DNA of 19,083 nucleotides, taken from contig DIEK01000022.1 in the NCBI GenBank assembly GCA_002418595.1, positions 692 to 19,774 of the forward strand. The letters are read 5' to 3'. Shown here piece by piece: positions 13,142 through 19,083 of the stretch. Source of the DNA: Candidatus Omnitrophica bacterium UBA5776 (GTDB lineage Bacteria; Omnitrophota; Gorgyraeia; Gygaellales; Profunditerraquicolaceae). The notes under the pieces are model-generated. The model was not told the origin of the DNA and made no database searches. It saw nothing but the letters and a program-made list of their open reading frames with translations. Made by a program: the position numbers and the translations under genes. Numbering within the stretch: the first letter of the stretch is position 1; each line of letters starts with the position of its first letter.

Positions 13142-15325
13142 TCATAACAACGGCGGCATCTCCAATGCAGGATGCCCGGCTTTCGTGAGGAATTCCAGGA
13201 GTTCCTCGATTTTTACCGCCGCCTCTTCATCGGCTATCTTATCGAACAACCCCGGATCGCCGAGCTCTTCGCAGCGCCGGCGCAGGCGTTCGCCGAGCAT
13301 TTCCTTAAGTTCTCTCGGCATCCAGACCACCCTCTTCAACCCGCCTTCGGCGGAGATGAATTTCCTGCTGGCGATATACAATTTCCCGACCCCGAGGAAA
13401 CCGGGCGTCTGCACTCCTCCTCCCACCGAACCTGCCAGGGTGGTGAACGTCATTCCGCAAGGGGTCATGCCGATATGGTCCCGGTGAACGACCATCACGC
13501 CGTTAGCTTCCGGCAACACGGCCACTATACACTCAAAACACCCGCAGGAGGTCTGCGGGGCGTCCAGCAGAGAATACATGCTTACCTTATCCACGGTTTT
13601 GTTGGACTTCAGATAGACGAATTCATTTATATTCCCCCATTGGCCGGCGCGCTCGTCCAGAATCTTGCCTTTGAGAACGGGCTGGTTGGGGCCGGTGGGC
13701 GTGATCTCATAAGAGGCCTTGGCGTCCAGCCAGGAATACGCGCCGCACAACCCCAGCCTCTCCGGAGTTACTATGCAGACGTGATTGGGGGCGAAAGACT
13801 GGCAGAGCAGACAGGAATAAAAGGTATCCACGCTCTCATCGGTCATCCCGCTTAAACGCTCATCCCTTTCCGCGAAACTCCCGACGGCCGCCGGCAAAAG
13901 CTTTTCCACCTCGGACTTTTCGGTATATATCTTCACCTGCACCTTATCCACTATAGCCTGGTATTCCTGGTGCAGCATGGCGTGCAATATGACACCCAGG
14001 TGCTTGAGACGGAACCCTTTGGAAAAGGCGTCTTTGGAAACACGTATCCAGTTCATATCGCGCTGGCCGACGTGCATTATACCCATGGCGTAATTCACGA
14101 AGCGGTGTATCTGGCGCTCGAGTATGGGCTCAAAATCCTTCTGCATGCGCCTGCCCGCCACCTCCACGATCAAAGCCAGCGGCAGAGACTTACCGCCTTT
14201 CGACAGCGCGTCTATATCCGGCCCGTGTATCTCCACTTTACCGTCTTCCACTTCCCGCAGCGGGCTGCTGTGGAGGTACTCGAAAGCCAGACTGCTCTTG
14301 CCGCCGAACTCCGCGTGAAGCTGATCCCGCCTGACGCGTTCCCCTTCGAAGGCCGCGGCGTAGGGTACCGGAACGGGGACCTCGGAAACCTTGACCTTTA
14401 TGCCGCGCGTCTGTATGCAGGCGGATGCGACGGCGGAATAATCACTCTGGCGCACAAGGGCCTCGTAAAGAGTGGTTTCCAGTTTGGGTACCTCGGGAAT
14501 ATCGAGATCGGTAATTATGGGAAACCCCATAGCAAGGGCCCCCAACCCGGTAGCCGTGATAACCTCGTCCACATGGCTTAGAAGAATAACGAAAGCGGGA
14601 ACCTTCTCTTTTGTATAAGAAAGTATCTCTTTCCACTGTCCGCATTTATGCCCGCCGTAGGTCAGAGGCGCCCTCACCGCCCAGTCCACGGCGTAAATAA
14701 CGGAAAGATAATCCGTGCCCAGGGGCACTATGTAATTGTCCAATCCAACCGCGATACCTGAATCTGCCAGCTGTTTGAGCATGCTCGCGCCGCCGGCGCT
14801 GCCGGCAAGCAGGCTTACGATGCTTTTGGACTGCAGGTCGCGTATCAGGCGCACTGCCGAATCCGCGTCCTTGGCCGGACCGGCGATCACCGCGATACCT
14901 GCAATACGGCCGTCAACCAACTGGATGTCGAGAGAACGAAGCAGGTTATCGGAAAGGAACCCGGCCGTTTCAGGCTGAGGGTGCCCCCCTTCAAGATATT
15001 GGAAGGACGCGAGCAGTTCCTCGCATAAAAGGACTGCCAGTCCTTTGTTCAGCAGGCCCCCCGCCGCCCCGAGAAAAAGACCGTTGCCGGCCGGATTTCC
15101 CGCCGCGAGTTTCTCCGCCTCCGAAATGATGCGGCCGCAGTCGCCCAAAGTGCGCACCTCTTCGTTCAAGAGCGCTTTTATCAAAGGAAGGGAATAATTT
15201 GTCCCCGGTAATTCCAGAGCCGTCCCGGCCCCGCGCCCTTTAACCAGCCTCTCGCTTTCCGCGCGCGTCAAAGCCAGGACCGCTTTCGTCCCTTTTTCCC
15301 CAAGTTCAGCGATTATGGAAGACAT
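13142..15325 (-). CDS. acsB: acetyl-CoA synthase (CO-methylating), CODH/ACS catalytic subunit
   Basis: AcsB joins a methyl group from the corrinoid iron-sulfur protein with CO and CoA to make acetyl-CoA, the final step of the Wood-Ljungdahl pathway. From ATG 15325 the protein has 727 residues, almost the length of the Moorella enzyme (729). All A-cluster ligands are present with a constant offset of one from Moorella numbering: Cys505, Cys508, Cys517 and Cys527 in SCLLCQSFAPNHVC and LGLCGAY, then the Cys594-Gly595-Cys596 motif in QTSCGCFEC that binds the two metals beside the cubane. The full N-terminal half (1-310) is present, so this is the bacterial form that contacts CODH. The open frame extends 49 codons upstream, but GGGAG seven bases before 15325 and the family N-terminus decide the start. 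CODH, CFeSP and methyltransferase genes are not in the window. Confidence 0.97.
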   Translation of the reverse strand: MSSIIAELGEKGTKAVLALTRAESERLVKGRGAGTALELPGTNYSLPLIKALLNEEVRTLGDCGRIISEAEKLAAGNPAGNGLFLGAAGGLLNKGLAVLLCEELLASFQYLEGGHPQPETAGFLSDNLLRSLDIQLVDGRIAGIAVIAGPAKDADSAVRLIRDLQSKSIVSLLAGSAGGASMLKQLADSGIAVGLDNYIVPLGTDYLSVIYAVDWAVRAPLTYGGHKCGQWKEILSYTKEKVPAFVILLSHVDEVITATGLGALAMGFPIITDLDIPEVPKLETTLYEALVRQSDYSAVASACIQTRGIKVKVSEVPVPVPYAAAFEGERVRRDQLHAEFGGKSSLAFEYLHSSPLREVEDGKVEIHGPDIDALSKGGKSLPLALIVEVAGRRMQKDFEPILERQIHRFVNYAMGIMHVGQRDMNWIRVSKDAFSKGFRLKHLGVILHAMLHQEYQAIVDKVQVKIYTEKSEVEKLLPAAVGSFAERDERLSGMTDESVDTFYSCLLCQSFAPNHVCIVTPERLGLCGAYSWLDAKASYEITPTGPNQPVLKGKILDERAGQWGNINEFVYLKSNKTVDKVSMYSLLDAPQTSCGCFECIVAVLPEANGVMVVHRDHIGMTPCGMTFTTLAGSVGGGVQTPGFLGVGKLYIASRKFISAEGGLKRVVWMPRELKEMLGERLRRRCEELGDPGLFDKIADEEAAVKIEELLEFLTKAGHPALEMPPLL

Positions 15326-15350
15326 CCGTATTTCTCCCGTGACAAAACGG

Positions 15351-16286
15351 TCACACGACCGCTTCGGTTTTGCCGGATTCGGCCGCGAGTATCTCATCGG
15401 CGGCTCTGATCCCCTGCAGGCGCGCATCTTCCGCGCCCGATTCAGCCGCGGCCTCCCCGCAGGCAAAAACATTATCGACCCCGGCGCGCAGATTCCCGCC
15501 GGTTTTTATCCGCCCGTTCTCGATTTCCGCTTCTCCTCCGGCGGCAAAATCCATGCAGGGATTACCGCGCCGGCAAAAGATCACGGAAGCTGCCTCGACT
15601 ATCTTTCCTCCGCTCAACCTGACCGCTTTCAATTCTTTTCCCTCTCCGATGATCTCTACAATATCCGTTCCTCCGAGGATCTCCGGATTATCACCCGGGA
15701 GATGGGAGGATTCGCCGCCTTCTTTCAGCAGCAATTTCACCGTCCTGCCTGCGGAAGAAAAAAGGCCGGCAAGCCTCCGGGAGTCATCGGCCCTGCCGCA
15801 AACAACCACGTTGCCGGGTATGGAAAGCCTCCGCCTGATCTCGTCCGCGTCGGAAAGACCGAAGAAAACAAAAACTCCCTCTTTGCCCTTCCCCGGGATA
15901 TCCAGCGCCGGCTTGCGGCCGCCGGCAACGATAAGATAATCGTAAGCCAACCTGCGGTTGTTCTTCAAATATACCCTCTGCCTGGGAAAATCAATCCCGC
16001 TCACCGCGGCGGAACGGGCGAATTCCACGTTATGCCCGGAAAAGAAACCTTCTTCGCATAGCAGAATTTCACGTTTGCTCATTTTCCCTTCCAGGTAATC
16101 CGGCAAAAGGTCGCAGTTATACGGCAAATCATCGTCCTGGGCCAAAAGGGTCACTTTCCAGTCCGGCTTCGCCTCTGATAGACGCCGGCAGGCGGCAAAA
16201 CCGGCATTAGTGGCTCCGATAATCAATACTTGCGGTGTTTTTTGAACAGACATAAATTGGCCCGGGTTATTATATAAATATTGCAT
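15351..16286 (-). CDS. degenerate FAD/NAD(P)-dependent oxidoreductase of the pyridine nucleotide-disulfide family
   Basis: The 311-residue product resembles NADH oxidase/nitrite-reductase-type flavoproteins. Visible parts: an N-terminal Rossmann strand PQVLIIGATNAG (18-29), the linker motif YDYLIVAGGRKP (116-127 region), and the C-terminal FAD motif GVDNVFACGEAA (269-280). The FAD glycine motif is altered (GATNAG rather than GxGxxG), and the second Rossmann motif, expected to bind NAD(P)H, reads VVVCGRADDSRRLAG (160-174) and lacks GxGxxG. No paired redox cysteines (CxxxxC) are seen. It lies 7 bp after metF and 25 bp before acsB, so a redox role in the C1 pathway is plausible but inferred. ATG 16253 (residue 12) is an alternative start that would begin nearer the Rossmann strand; neither start has a strong ribosome site. 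Confidence 0.75.
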   Translation of the reverse strand: MQYLYNNPGQFMSVQKTPQVLIIGATNAGFAACRRLSEAKPDWKVTLLAQDDDLPYNCDLLPDYLEGKMSKREILLCEEGFFSGHNVEFARSAAVSGIDFPRQRVYLKNNRRLAYDYLIVAGGRKPALDIPGKGKEGVFVFFGLSDADEIRRRLSIPGNVVVCGRADDSRRLAGLFSSAGRTVKLLLKEGGESSHLPGDNPEILGGTDIVEIIGEGKELKAVRLSGGKIVEAASVIFCRRGNPCMDFAAGGEAEIENGRIKTGGNLRAGVDNVFACGEAAAESGAEDARLQGIRAADEILAAESGKTEAVV

Positions 16287-16293
16287 ATTCTCA

Positions 16294-17166
16294 TTACCTG
16301 CCCGCCGCTTCCAGCAGGCGCGGCACTATGGAAAACCATCCCGCAGGCATCAGATGTATGCCGGCGCACATCGGTTTGATCTCCCCGATGAGGCGCGAGA
16401 ATATTTTCTCCACAGCGTTCTCGTTATCACCGGAGCTCTCGATCTCTTTTATCAGGCGTTCCGGTACGTTCACTCCCGGCACGCGCCGGTTAAGATACCT
16501 GGCTGTGCGCGCCGATCTCAACGGCAGTATGCCGGCGAGCACTCTGGAGTCTGAAACCGGCTTTCTGCGCATGAACGCGGCGAAAGATTCCGCGTCGAAA
16601 ACGGCCTGAGTCTGAAAAAATTCAGCTCCGGCGGCAGCCTTTTTGGCCATCTTCATCAATTCGAGTTCCTGCGGGTCGGCTCCGGGATTGACCACGGCAC
16701 CGCAAAAGAAATCCGGGGATGCCCCGGACAACGAGCGCCCCCGCATATCCTTGCCCCCGCGCATAGCGGAGAAAACCGACAATAACTGCACGGAATCCAG
16801 GTCGAAAACCGGTTTGGCCTCACGATGATCCCCCAATAAAGGATGATCTCCGGTCAACGCCAGGACATTCTTTATCCCCAATGCCGCGGCGGCAAGCAGA
16901 TCGGACTGCAGGGCAATCCGGTTCCTGTCGCGGCAGGTAAGCTGATATACAGGCTCCAATCCGGCATCCTTCAGCCGCAGGCAAAGCGCCAGCGGACTCT
17001 GCCGCATCACCGCCGCGTGCGAATCTGTGACATTGAAAGCGTCCACTCTGCCGCGCATCGAGGACGCGGCCTCAAGCAGCTCTCCGAAATCCCCGCCTTT
17101 CTGCGGATTGAGTTCGCAGGTGACCACGAATTCCCCGGCTTTTATTTTCTTCCTTAATACGCTCAT
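16294..17166 (-). CDS. metF: 5,10-methylenetetrahydrofolate reductase
   Basis: MetF reduces methylene-THF to methyl-THF, the last methyl-branch step of the Wood-Ljungdahl pathway and also the source of methyl groups for methionine. The 290-residue flavoprotein barrel shows the family residues: Glu18 in VTCELNP (proton donor position), LTGDHP with Asp107, and FFQTQAVFD with Gln187 for folate binding. C-terminal sequence up to GIHLMPAGW matches the family end. ATG 17166 overlaps the DUF486 stop in an ATGA junction. Many acetogens encode a zinc protein MetV next to MetF; none is present here, and the next gene is a flavoprotein. The context with folD, fchA and acsB supports the acetogenic role. 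Confidence 0.95.
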   Translation of the reverse strand: MSVLRKKIKAGEFVVTCELNPQKGGDFGELLEAASSMRGRVDAFNVTDSHAAVMRQSPLALCLRLKDAGLEPVYQLTCRDRNRIALQSDLLAAAALGIKNVLALTGDHPLLGDHREAKPVFDLDSVQLLSVFSAMRGGKDMRGRSLSGASPDFFCGAVVNPGADPQELELMKMAKKAAAGAEFFQTQAVFDAESFAAFMRRKPVSDSRVLAGILPLRSARTARYLNRRVPGVNVPERLIKEIESSGDNENAVEKIFSRLIGEIKPMCAGIHLMPAGWFSIVPRLLEAAGR

Positions 17167-17489
17167 TTCTTAAAGATGAGATATACCGCCGCTACGATCA
17201 AAGCGAAACCGGCCAGATAATTCCATTTCAGCCGTTCGCCGAGATAAAGAACGGAAAAGACCGTAAAAACCGAGAGAGAAACCACCTCCTGTATCGTCTT
17301 CAGCTGCACGGCGGAAAACGCCCGGTAACCGATGCGGTTGGCGGGCACCTGGAAACAGTATTCGGCGAAAGCTATCAGCCAGCTGACCATTATCACCGTG
17401 AACAAGGGGGCCTTGGCGTATTTAAGGTGCCCGTACCAGGCAAAGGTCATGAAAATGTTGGATATCAGAAGCAGAACGACGGTCTTCAT
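17163..17489 (-). CDS. DUF486 family small membrane protein (DMT-like)
   Basis: The 108-residue protein is highly hydrophobic, with four predicted membrane helices (about 3-21, 31-49, 64-84 and 88-106). It matches my knowledge of the DUF486/DMT-like family, which has conserved FMTFAWYGHLK near the start, FEYCFQVPANRIGY-like sequence in the middle (here AEYCFQVPANRIGY, 42-55), QLKTIQEV (62-69) and LKWNYLAGF (87-95). Members resemble half of a drug/metabolite transporter and probably work as oligomers; no substrate is established. The stop overlaps metF by 4 bp, so it is translated with metF. Its place inside a C1 operon is unexplained. No good ribosome site precedes ATG 17489; an AGGAGG lies 26 bases upstream. 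Confidence 0.85.
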   Translation of the reverse strand: MKTVVLLLISNIFMTFAWYGHLKYAKAPLFTVIMVSWLIAFAEYCFQVPANRIGYRAFSAVQLKTIQEVVSLSVFTVFSVLYLGERLKWNYLAGFALIVAAVYLIFKK

Positions 17490-17491
17490 AA

Positions 17492-17638
17492 TCAGTTCGA
17501 CGCACCGCGGCCTGATCCTCCTGCGGGCTTTAACAGTGAGCCTGTGGAATTGCTCAGGACAGACGGGCGTAGTTTGCTCATGATTTTGATGATGGGCGGC
17601 GCGTGTTCGGCGCCGCCGCAGTGTAAATGCTCAATCAT
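17492..17638 (-). CDS. possible small ORF of 48 codons in the folD-DUF486 gap
   Basis: An ATG at 17638 overlaps the folD stop by 8 bases and opens a 48-residue frame (MIEHLHCGGAEHAPP...) that ends two bases before the DUF486 start, thus filling the gap exactly. I recognise no family. It has one cysteine, no membrane segment and a glycine/serine-rich tail. The lack of a clear ribosome site at a useful distance, and the strong hairpin inside it, argue that it may be non-coding. The exact fit between neighbours is the only support. Confidence 0.2.
   Translation of the reverse strand: MIEHLHCGGAEHAPPIIKIMSKLRPSVLSNSTGSLLKPAGGSGRGASN
17595..17617 (-). other. strong GC hairpin after folD
   Basis: GGCGGCGC and GCGCCGCC form a perfect all-GC 8-bp stem with a 7-base loop, about 14 bases after the folD stop. 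No U-tract follows on either strand, so it does not look like an intrinsic terminator. In a co-transcribed operon it could stabilise the upstream mRNA or lower expression of the downstream genes. Confidence 0.55.
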
Positions 17639-18497
17639 TCCTGGGTTGTTTTTTCTGCATGGATGCCGCTTCAAGGAAATTGCGCATAAGAATGGCGGCG
17701 GTCACCGGCCCCACTCCGCCCGGCACCGGGGTTATCCAGGAAGCCCTGGACGCCGCTTCCGCGGTCTCCACGTCACCGACGATCATGCCGTTGCTGCGGT
17801 TTATGCCGACGTCTATCACGACCGCTCCTTTCTTGACCCACTTACCTTTGATGATTCCCGCTTTCCCCACAGCCACAACCAGTATCTCGGCCCGCGAGAC
17901 GTGCTCCTGCAGTTTTCCGGCGCTGTCAGTGCCTATGTGACAGACTGTGACGGTGGCAAGCTTGTCCAAAAGAAGAAGCGCCAGCGGGCGCCCCACTATT
18001 TCGCTGTGGCCGATCACTACCGCTTCCCTGCCTTCCAGCCTGACCCCGGACAACTTGATGAGCTCCATCACCGCCGCCGGGGTGCAGGGAACGATACGCG
18101 GACGGGGAAAGAACATATGTCCTATATTATACGGATGCATCCCTTCCACGTCCTTCAAAGGGGATATCTCCCTCACCGCCGCCAGGTAATCTATCTCGTT
18201 AGGCAGGGGTTTCTGTATAATGATGCCGTTGACCCCGGCGTCGAGGTTGAGCCTGTCGATCAACCCCTTTAAATCTTCCAAGGAGGTCCTGGCTGCCAGT
18301 TTATGCAGGCGGTAATCGAATCCCAGGGCAGAGGCGAGCCTGGACTGCATCTGCGTGTAGGATCCGGCTGCGGCATTGTCCCCCACCTGTATGCCCGCCA
18401 GGGCGGGACGGAAACCGAGCCGGCCTATCCTGGAACGGATCTCCTCTTTGATACGCTCGGCTATTACGCTACCTTTCAATAATCCCGCAGACGCCAT
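17631..18497 (-). CDS. folD: methylenetetrahydrofolate dehydrogenase (FolD family, cyclohydrolase residues altered)
   Basis: FolD normally oxidises methylene-THF to methenyl-THF and also hydrolyses it to formyl-THF; in the acetogenic direction it runs in reverse. The 288-residue protein aligns without gaps to the catalytic segment of E. coli FolD with an offset of three: VGDNAAAGSYTQMQSRLASALGF. Tyr47 (E. coli Tyr50) and Gln95 (Gln98, in IIIQKPLP) are kept. The catalytic lysine (E. coli Lys54) is Gln51, and Asp121 is Glu118 (KDVEGMHP). The Rossmann motif is VIGHSEIVGRP (161-171) and the end motif is TPVPGGVGPVT (256-266). ATG 18497, with GGAG seven bases upstream, overlaps fchA by 29 bp. Dehydrogenase function is likely; cyclohydrolase function is doubtful. 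Confidence 0.93.
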   Translation of the reverse strand: MASAGLLKGSVIAERIKEEIRSRIGRLGFRPALAGIQVGDNAAAGSYTQMQSRLASALGFDYRLHKLAARTSLEDLKGLIDRLNLDAGVNGIIIQKPLPNEIDYLAAVREISPLKDVEGMHPYNIGHMFFPRPRIVPCTPAAVMELIKLSGVRLEGREAVVIGHSEIVGRPLALLLLDKLATVTVCHIGTDSAGKLQEHVSRAEILVVAVGKAGIIKGKWVKKGAVVIDVGINRSNGMIVGDVETAEAASRASWITPVPGGVGPVTAAILMRNFLEAASMQKKQPRND

Positions 18498-19035
18498 CCT
18501 CTATCTCCGTTCTTATCCTCAACATCGACCGCTTCTTGACCGACAATTCCCTGAGCATCCCCCGGGACAACGCCCTGTCGCCGATAATCTTCAAATTTAT
18601 GCGCACGTTAAAATATGCGCCGCGGAAAGCCGCCTCCAGCATGGCCGCGGCGGTGCCGGTATCGGTGCAAAGATTGGGATTGCCTTTTTTCAGCACCTCG
18701 GGGCAGAATTTCATTCCTTCGTAAGAAAGCCGGCAGATAATGAAAGAAATATCCAGTGATCTGCGCATGTCCCTGCCGTTGAAAGCCTCCGCGTCAAGGT
18801 CCGCCAGCTCCAGAAAGCGCGCGCGCAGCCTCTCAGCCGCTCCGAGAATCTCCTTCAGGCGCTTCTCGTGCGCGGCGTAAGCTTTCCTGCCGAGCGAGAA
18901 ATTAAGCACCATGCTTAACAGCGCCGTCCCCATAGCGGCGGCTACCGCTGAGGCGGAACCCCCTCCGGGTACCGCGTTGCCGGCGGCGAGGCAATCGTTG
19001 TATTTCTCCAAGCTCTTGCGGCAGTATCTCACCAT
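18469..19035 (-). CDS. fchA: methenyltetrahydrofolate cyclohydrolase (FTCD cyclodeaminase-like)
   Basis: FchA interconverts formyl-THF and methenyl-THF, between formate-THF ligase and FolD in the methyl branch. The 188-residue all-helical protein belongs to the formiminotransferase-cyclodeaminase C-terminal family. It shows VPGGGSASA (22-30), LDAEAFN (80-86) and NPNLCTDTGTAAAML (119-133) followed by GAYFNVRINL (139-148). The family also includes glutamate formiminotransferase-linked cyclodeaminases, but the position between probable fhs and folD points to FchA. It overlaps folD by 29 bp and starts 7 bp after the upstream stop, with AGGGGG about 13 bases before the ATG. Confidence 0.9.
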   Translation of the reverse strand: MVRYCRKSLEKYNDCLAAGNAVPGGGSASAVAAAMGTALLSMVLNFSLGRKAYAAHEKRLKEILGAAERLRARFLELADLDAEAFNGRDMRRSLDISFIICRLSYEGMKFCPEVLKKGNPNLCTDTGTAAAMLEAAFRGAYFNVRINLKIIGDRALSRGMLRELSVKKRSMLRIRTEIEDGVCGIIER

Positions 19036-19042
19036 GATATCG

Positions 19043-19083
19043 TCAAAGCCCCCTTATCATACCGTTATCGTCCACGTCCATCG
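19043..19083 (-). CDS. fhs: C-terminal end of probable formate-tetrahydrofolate ligase
   Basis: Only the last 12 complete codons and the stop are inside the window. They read MDVDDNGMIRGL, which resembles the typical end of formate-THF ligase (a pattern of the kind IDxDxxGxIxGLF). The next gene is fchA after 7 bp, and folD follows, which is the biochemical order for formate activation. The identification rests on this short tail and the context, so it is tentative. Confidence 0.5.
   Translation of the reverse strand, partial: MDVDDNGMIRGL

Follow-up and report, generated by a model that had tools for sequence, protein, structure and literature searches.

A FolD homologue that lacks the cyclohydrolase lysine and is encoded beside an FchA-family protein in an Omnitrophota one-carbon operon

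Which protein carries out the cyclohydrolase step of folate one-carbon metabolism when a genome's FolD does not have the lysine tied to that step? The question is raised by the right end of a 19,083 nucleotide stretch of the Candidatus Omnitrophica bacterium UBA5776 genome (the window), where folD overlaps a gene, here called fchA, for a protein of the FTCD_C family (Table 1). In a study of Pseudomonas aeruginosa FolD the catalytic residues are described as strictly conserved in orthologues and the lysine as a general acid/base (PMC3338484). We consider it very probable that the window FolD, missing the cyclohydrolase lysine, acts as a methylene-THF dehydrogenase and is paired with FchA in an fhs-fchA-folD-metF-acsB operon. 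FchA, the product of the overlapping upstream gene, would interconvert 10-formyl-THF and methenyl-THF, FolD would interconvert methenyl-THF and methylene-THF, and the two would act between Fhs and MetF/AcsB in the methyl branch. Residues 50, 54, 98, 99 and 121 below are in E. coli FolD numbering.

Table 1. Genes and FolD residues at the right end of the window
Feature	Position	Strand	Description	Basis
folD	17631..18497	-	288 aa, K54-less type (Q51/E118), predicted dehydrogenase only	ORF, Pfam PF00763 + PF02882
fchA	18469..19035	-	188 aa, FTCD_C family, predicted methenyl-THF cyclohydrolase	ORF, Pfam
fchA 3' end / folD 5' end overlap	18469..18497	-	29 bp	ORF coordinates
fhs (formate-THF ligase), 3' end	19043..19081	-	last 12 codons + stop, MDVDDNGMIRGL*; contig end here	by eye
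DMT_6 (DUF486)	17163..17489	-	small membrane protein, between folD and metF	Pfam
metF-type	16294..17166	-	methylene-THF reductase	PF02219
Pyr_redox_2	15351..16286	-	short pyridine-nucleotide oxidoreductase, 311 aa, between metF and acsB	Pfam
acsB	13142..15472	-	acetyl-CoA synthase / CODH complex subunit	Pfam + NCBIfam
FolD Tyr47	18357..18359	-	E. coli Y50, kept	HMMER alignment
FolD Gln51	18345..18347	-	E. coli K54, codon CAG	HMMER alignment
FolD Gln95, Lys96	18210..18215	-	Gln95 = Q98, kept; Lys96 = L99	alignment
FolD Glu118	18144..18146	-	E. coli D121, codon GAA	HMMER alignment
FolD GHSEIVGRP	17985..18011	-	His where K54-type FolDs mostly have Arg of GRS	alignment
FolD His187-Ile188-Gly189	17931..17939	-	K54-type mostly HS/HT then R/K; no basic residue after His here	

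The minus-strand gene order is fhs tail, fchA, folD, DMT_6, metF-type gene, short Pyr_redox_2 gene and acsB. The overlap of folD and fchA has the length that the sequence-only reading had given it, and may couple the translation of the two genes. In a same-genus genome (G001, locus L028) fchA is preceded by a longer stretch of fhs-like sequence whose ending matches. Elsewhere in the window's own genome, L527 (1652 bases) has a match to fhs over 50 residues (28.1 bits against a cut-off of 27), lying 2 bases short of the end of that stretch, which is taken as the end of contig C116. Because of this partial match and the fhs tail at the end of the window's contig, the gene is probably split over two contigs. 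Acetogen Wood-Ljungdahl clusters (fhs, fchA, folD, metV/metF, acs; PMC9040625, PMC10213532) have the same genes for the same part of the pathway, but the window operon adds the DMT_6 gene and the short Pyr_redox_2 gene, and no metV is annotated among its ORFs and Pfam matches. Partial or full Wood-Ljungdahl pathways have been predicted in several Omnitrophota families (PMC10066038).

Three neighbours in this operon deserve mention. A DMT_6/DUF486 gene within the one-carbon operon is found again in some other Omnitrophota loci. A relative of the short Pyr_redox_2 protein, which is perhaps a redox partner of MetF, is encoded downstream of folD in 17 of the 28 Omnitrophota loci with at least 2 kb of downstream sequence. 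The MetF-type protein has its top score against the C-terminal half of PRK08645, a bifunctional homocysteine methyltransferase/MTHFR model, above the usual MetF models.

The window FolD matches both Pfam domains of the family (PF00763, 92.7 bits against a cut-off of 32.8; PF02882, 205.8 bits against 27), and the best Foldseek matches of its AlphaFold model (pLDDT 93.4) are E. coli FolD, with 44% identity to 5o28 in the structural alignment. It shares the fold of bifunctional FolDs (E. coli 1b0a and 5o22, P. aeruginosa 4a5o, human MTHFD1), is homologous to them over the full length and keeps Tyr50 and Gln98, but Gln replaces the K54 of a bifunctional FolD and Glu replaces D121, and of the 30 NCBIfam FolD models matched, all 25 listed give it a score under their cut-off (best 294.4 against 355 bits). 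These four residue assignments were made in the sequence-only reading and stand in HMMER alignments to 1b0a, 5o22 and 4a5o; its claim of a gapless alignment to E. coli FolD holds from Tyr47 to Glu118 but not near residue 26 or in the second half, where there are gaps. Gln is found at position 54 in 110 of 110 sequences readable by a simple motif among the best 120 homologues listed, the window protein included and ten sequences lying outside the motif's reach. A sequencing error or single-case substitution is ruled out, as the FolD of G001 and those of the other Omnitrophota counted (71 in all, described below) agree with the window.

The same pairing was found throughout the phylum. A sample of 286 Omnitrophota genomes, with minimum completeness set at 85, has both PF00763 and PF04961 in 277 genomes and neither in eight; G100 has a weak PF04961 match only, without PF00763. 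Gln54, Gln98 and Glu121 are present in 71 of 71 Omnitrophota FolDs (one per genome), all from genomes with FchA, a count that leaves out G037. The contig C38 of that genome (L002, 1-3180) carries an 8199-aa ORF with a degenerate FolD (aligned T54/D121) and an FchA domain directly after it, and G037 has additional FolD and FchA matches elsewhere. The window's own genome has its FTCD_C-family gene, and a second FolD was not found in it (a single PF00763 match; 1.40 Mb, 131 contigs, 83% complete); a second intact copy doing the main job had been named beforehand as a finding that would speak against the proposed pairing.

Outside the phylum sample, the DNA pattern Tyr-x3-Gln...Gln-x-Pro-Leu-Pro was run over a contig collection of 84,980 species. 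At least 119 stretches match this K54Q pattern; 118 of the 119 listed are FolD (L208 is not), 44 of them from Omnitrophota, and the matches listed also span Clostridium, Planctomycetota, Aerophobetes, Elusimicrobia, Zipacnadia, Ratteibacteria, Desantisbacteria and others. Among the Omnitrophota matches listed, fchA is directly 5' of folD in 38 of 44 loci and 864 bp away in one; it was not found near folD in five, four of which have less than 150 bases upstream, and the genome of the fifth (L134, G315) has PF04961 elsewhere. The 28 of these loci that extend at least 2 kb downstream have a same-strand metF in 22 cases and acsB in 16; all such adjacency counts are limited by stretches of at most 8 kb. 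Over all matches listed, FchA is encoded in the same locus in 49 and not in 69, and a genome-wide search of 50 of these 69 found PF04961 in 42. FchA is thus missing from 8 of 99 K54Q genomes examined among the matches listed (49 in-locus and 50 searched), and seven of these eight have a second FolD with K54; in G322, an Elusimicrobia MAG of 1.2 Mb with a K54-less FolD, neither FchA nor a second FolD was found. Fifteen loci of this K54Q-selected set duplicate genomes of the phylum set. At the N terminus of two K54-less FolDs, L108 1199-2617 (Planctomycetota) and L144 5019-6377 (Elusimicrobia), there is a response-regulator receiver domain (PF00072). Each of these genomes has a further FolD with K54, and FchA was not found in either.

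In 196 Clostridia genomes PF04961 was found in 71 (70 over the cut-off; G468, with a match under it, was counted as FchA-minus) and PF00763 in 185. Among the 127 with a single FolD that were counted, 48 of 48 K54-less FolDs are in FchA-plus genomes and 78 of the 79 K54 FolDs in FchA-minus ones, the exception being G402, which has a K54 FolD and a free FTCD_C protein; no FchA-minus genome of the 78 has a K54-less FolD. By subtraction, these 78 are the ones read of 117 FchA-minus Clostridia with FolD. Outside the count are G357 and G535 (two FolD matches each; the FolD read in G357 has K54), and 19 FchA-plus genomes with FolD unread, two of which (G425 and G509) are without a FolD match. Residue 54 in the 48 K54-less proteins is Ala in 25, Ile in nine, Gln in seven, Leu in three, Val in three and Met in one. 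Many FchA-plus Clostridia (L303, L304, L307 and others in L303-L373) combine A, I, V or L at 54 with F, L or M at 98, which by sequence is a larger remodelling of the site than that in the window FolD. In G535, a K54-type folD (L300, C1:217566-218573) has one in-frame TAA, the genome has another PF00763 match, and its FTCD_C gene is just after an amidohydrolase-family gene.

The Planctomycetota sample (128 genomes; PF00763 in 122, PF04961 in 97) is less clear-cut. Of 83 genomes counted among the 122 with FolD, 35 have a K54-less and 48 a K54 protein, and PF04961 accompanies 33 of the former and 23 of the latter, the other 25 K54 genomes being without it; a K54-less FolD is therefore found in 2 of 27 FchA-minus genomes. 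In these two, G618 and G649, neither FchA nor a full second FolD was found, and G618 has a 79-aa fragment of a second FolD. All 12 PF04961 genes fetched from K54 Planctomycetota encode fused formiminotransferase-cyclodeaminases (FTCD or FTCD_N domains), as do five of six FTCD_C genes fetched from K54-less ones, these 18 having been picked mostly for long ORFs and so not being representative. In nine K54 Planctomycetota the FTCD_C gene is free-standing by ORF length (210-294 aa), and the remaining two of the 23 are unclassified. Since PF04961 is often part of a fused FTCD, it indicates FchA only coarsely in Planctomycetota, among K54 and K54-less genomes alike. Genomes with two FolDs each (G659, G574, G662) are outside the Planctomycetota count, and the fragments L098, L116, L148, L167 and L464 were also left out of the counts.

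These distributions follow a rule that runs one way and has few exceptions: where FolD lacks K54, the genome also encodes an FchA-family protein or a second FolD with K54. The sequence-only reading had proposed that loss of K54 and presence of fchA co-occur, and had accepted that a K54 loss common in genomes without fchA would count against it; such losses are rare, which supports the proposal, but the FchA family does not force the loss of K54. A two-way rule, in which FchA is present if and only if K54 is lost, is ruled out by the 23 of 48 K54 Planctomycetota and by G402, which have the family.

One competitor of the division of labour is co-inheritance, in which K54-less FolD lineages merely travel with FchA in one-carbon operons and residue 54 marks the lineage but is itself neutral. 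A FolD tree of 388 rows and 274 columns (FastTree, trait columns removed) needs four changes between K and non-K and is compatible with loss or gain. Midpoint rooting places the 71 Omnitrophota and 32 of 35 K54-less Planctomycetota, among others, in one clade of 185 rows, and the 48 clostridial K54-less proteins, together with 18 others, in one of 66 rows; two further rows stand singly. Eight supported independent pairs differing in FchA gave a mean of 0.9 in the expected way, 0.0 in the opposite way and 7.1 without difference; a sign test on them is not significant, four changes giving no power, and the distribution counts rest on few deep events because there are so few changes. Fisher tests of K54 loss against FchA (1.8e-34 for Clostridia, 4.3e-6 for Planctomycetota) treat relatives as independent and for that reason overstate the evidence. 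The small number of changes and the outcome for the pairs, together with the adjacency of fchA and folD in Omnitrophota, speak for co-inheritance. Such an explanation sits poorly with the Clostridium K54Q loci, where FchA was not found within stretches of at most 8 kb (by an HMM built from Omnitrophota FchA) and yet PF04961 is present elsewhere in 15 of 15 genomes searched among the matches listed, and with the second K54 FolD in the seven FchA-less genomes among the matches listed.

The linked residues also speak against co-inheritance. In the 388 rows all 135 K54 proteins have Q98 and D121, whereas E121 (183 rows) and replacements of Q98 (53 rows) occur only without K54; the natural variants are Q, A, I, V, L and M at 54, F, L, M, H, S and A at 98 and E at 121. 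Such a pattern would be expected if constraint on the part of the enzyme serving the cyclohydrolase reaction had been relaxed or redirected, and we regard a neutral marker as unlikely. Judged by these data, K54-less FolDs of this kind form an old subfamily that is fixed among the sampled Omnitrophota, and are no peculiarity of the window's own genome. The sequence-only reading had described a bifunctional FolD reduced to a dehydrogenase, its lost step taken over by FchA; the distribution supports such a division, but the tree gives no order in time for the bifunctional and the K54-less state.

Another possibility is that the Q54/E121 FolD is still bifunctional, with another group replacing the lysine and FchA serving as an extra cyclohydrolase for high flux through the methyl branch. 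The lysine had been called essential for the cyclohydrolase reaction, and the mutants divide on this: in E. coli FolD K54N cyclohydrolase is undetectable, dehydrogenase activity is down to about 19% and growth is slow (PMC5688156), but Bombyx mori K53A keeps most of both activities (PMC6443876, Table 2), so loss of the lysine need not abolish cyclohydrolase in every homologue. In the human enzyme the lysine has a part in the dehydrogenase reaction too (PMC3368264). A new lysine, Lys96, does stand beside Gln95 in the window FolD, and the nine Planctomycetota with K54 beside an apparently free FTCD_C gene indicate that both can coexist. Lys96 is present in only 2 of the 71 Omnitrophota counted, both of the window's genus, which rules it out as a relocated catalytic lysine for the whole group. 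Retained bifunctionality would further leave unexplained both the near absence of K54-less FolDs from single-FolD genomes without the FchA family in Clostridia and Planctomycetota and the second K54 FolD in seven of the eight exceptions, and we think it distinctly improbable.

The window FchA retains the invariant columns of a 32-sequence alignment, matches FTCD_C with 139.9 bits (cut-off 24.5), is 80% identical to a Candidatus Omnitrophota FchA (P0124), and differs from the family in its loop after residue 86, which has roughly 20-25 fewer residues. Its AlphaFold model has a pLDDT of 96.9. That it is instead a formiminotetrahydrofolate cyclodeaminase, FolD relying on spontaneous methenyl-THF hydrolysis, is very unlikely: the Pfam family does span both enzymes, the protein is under the NCBIfam FchA equivalog cut-off (NF045657, 112.7 against 275 bits) and its model is as near the Thermotoga maritima cyclodeaminase 1o5h as the M. 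extorquens FchA 7vg4_A (query-normalised TM 0.92 to both), but the gene is placed between fhs and folD, 7vg4 is the top-scoring solved chain by sequence, and the formiminotransferase domain PF07837 (FTCD_N) has no match in the 83% complete genome. The authors of the E. coli K54N study state that the methenyl-THF reaction can proceed spontaneously (PMC5688156), and since that mutant is also viable, cyclohydrolase may not be strictly needed.

The split between a dehydrogenase and a separate cyclohydrolase that we favour has parallels. Aluri et al. (2016, Microbiology 162:145) reportedly found that Clostridium perfringens FolD is a dehydrogenase only, that FchA supplies the cyclohydrolase and that both together replace E. 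coli FolD, which would be the same division of labour as that proposed for the window. With this one biochemical precedent, the division-of-labour reading is well supported by the distribution. The C. perfringens study is cited, with a one-line mention, in PMC7219735; a link between residue 54 and FchA was not found in the openly licensed literature, subscription journals being mostly outside the search. The clostridial K54-less FolDs, compared here from the sequences read (C. perfringens itself not identified among them), fall in another clade; nearly all have D121 (47 of 48) and most retain the basic residues of the cofactor site, in contrast to the E121, GHSE, HIG and overlapping fchA of the window. 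Yeast Mtd1 (1edz) is a monofunctional NAD-dependent dehydrogenase (Wagner et al. 2005, cited in PMC11064299); it is a FolD-family, dehydrogenase-only protein, but eukaryotic and distant from the window FolD (phmmer 56 bits, partial).

The cofactor site differs in the same group of proteins. GRS is present in 131 of 135 K54-type FolDs, and in 117 of 135 the His is succeeded by Ser/Thr and then Arg/Lys; clostridial K54-less FolDs keep the Arg in 43 of 48 and the Arg/Lys in 42 of 48. Omnitrophota FolDs have Arg at the first of these places in 2 of 71 and Arg/Lys at the second in none of 71. We take the GRS and HS-R positions to bind the 2'-phosphate of NADP, and window-type FolD would then probably use NAD(H) over NADP(H). 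What this analysis adds is that the change extends through the whole phylum sample, goes along with E121 and an altered cofactor motif, and is one case of the one-way rule.

Two Peptococcaceae MAGs, G314 (L246, 502-2337) and G325 (L249), both among the seven FchA-less genomes with a second FolD, carry tandem Q54 and K54 FolDs. In both, the cofactor motif is normal in the Q54 copy, and the K54 copy has GFSIEIGKP and a gap where HSR/HIA stands, without the His-x-x residues; both G314 copies match both Pfam domains. The simplest reading is that one copy would be a dehydrogenase and the other a cyclohydrolase.

We tentatively put forward a wider view, possible but less likely than not: residue 54 could be a genome-readable switch, a non-lysine there indicating that the folate one-carbon branch runs on a split pair. 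Omnitrophota and other anaerobes would then have an old, NAD-linked E121-type FolD, distinct from the clostridial one and translation-coupled to FchA; the split may predate the bifunctional enzyme or be of equal age, and the tandem Peptococcaceae pair would be the same split inside the FolD family. If residue 54 does mark the split, many anaerobe FolDs are misannotated and metabolic models assign to them a reaction that they do not perform. The natural variation at 54, 98 and 121 would be a ready set for the residue needs of each half-reaction, and in the tandem Q54/K54 pair nature would provide a direct test of the way in which a single active site is partitioned.
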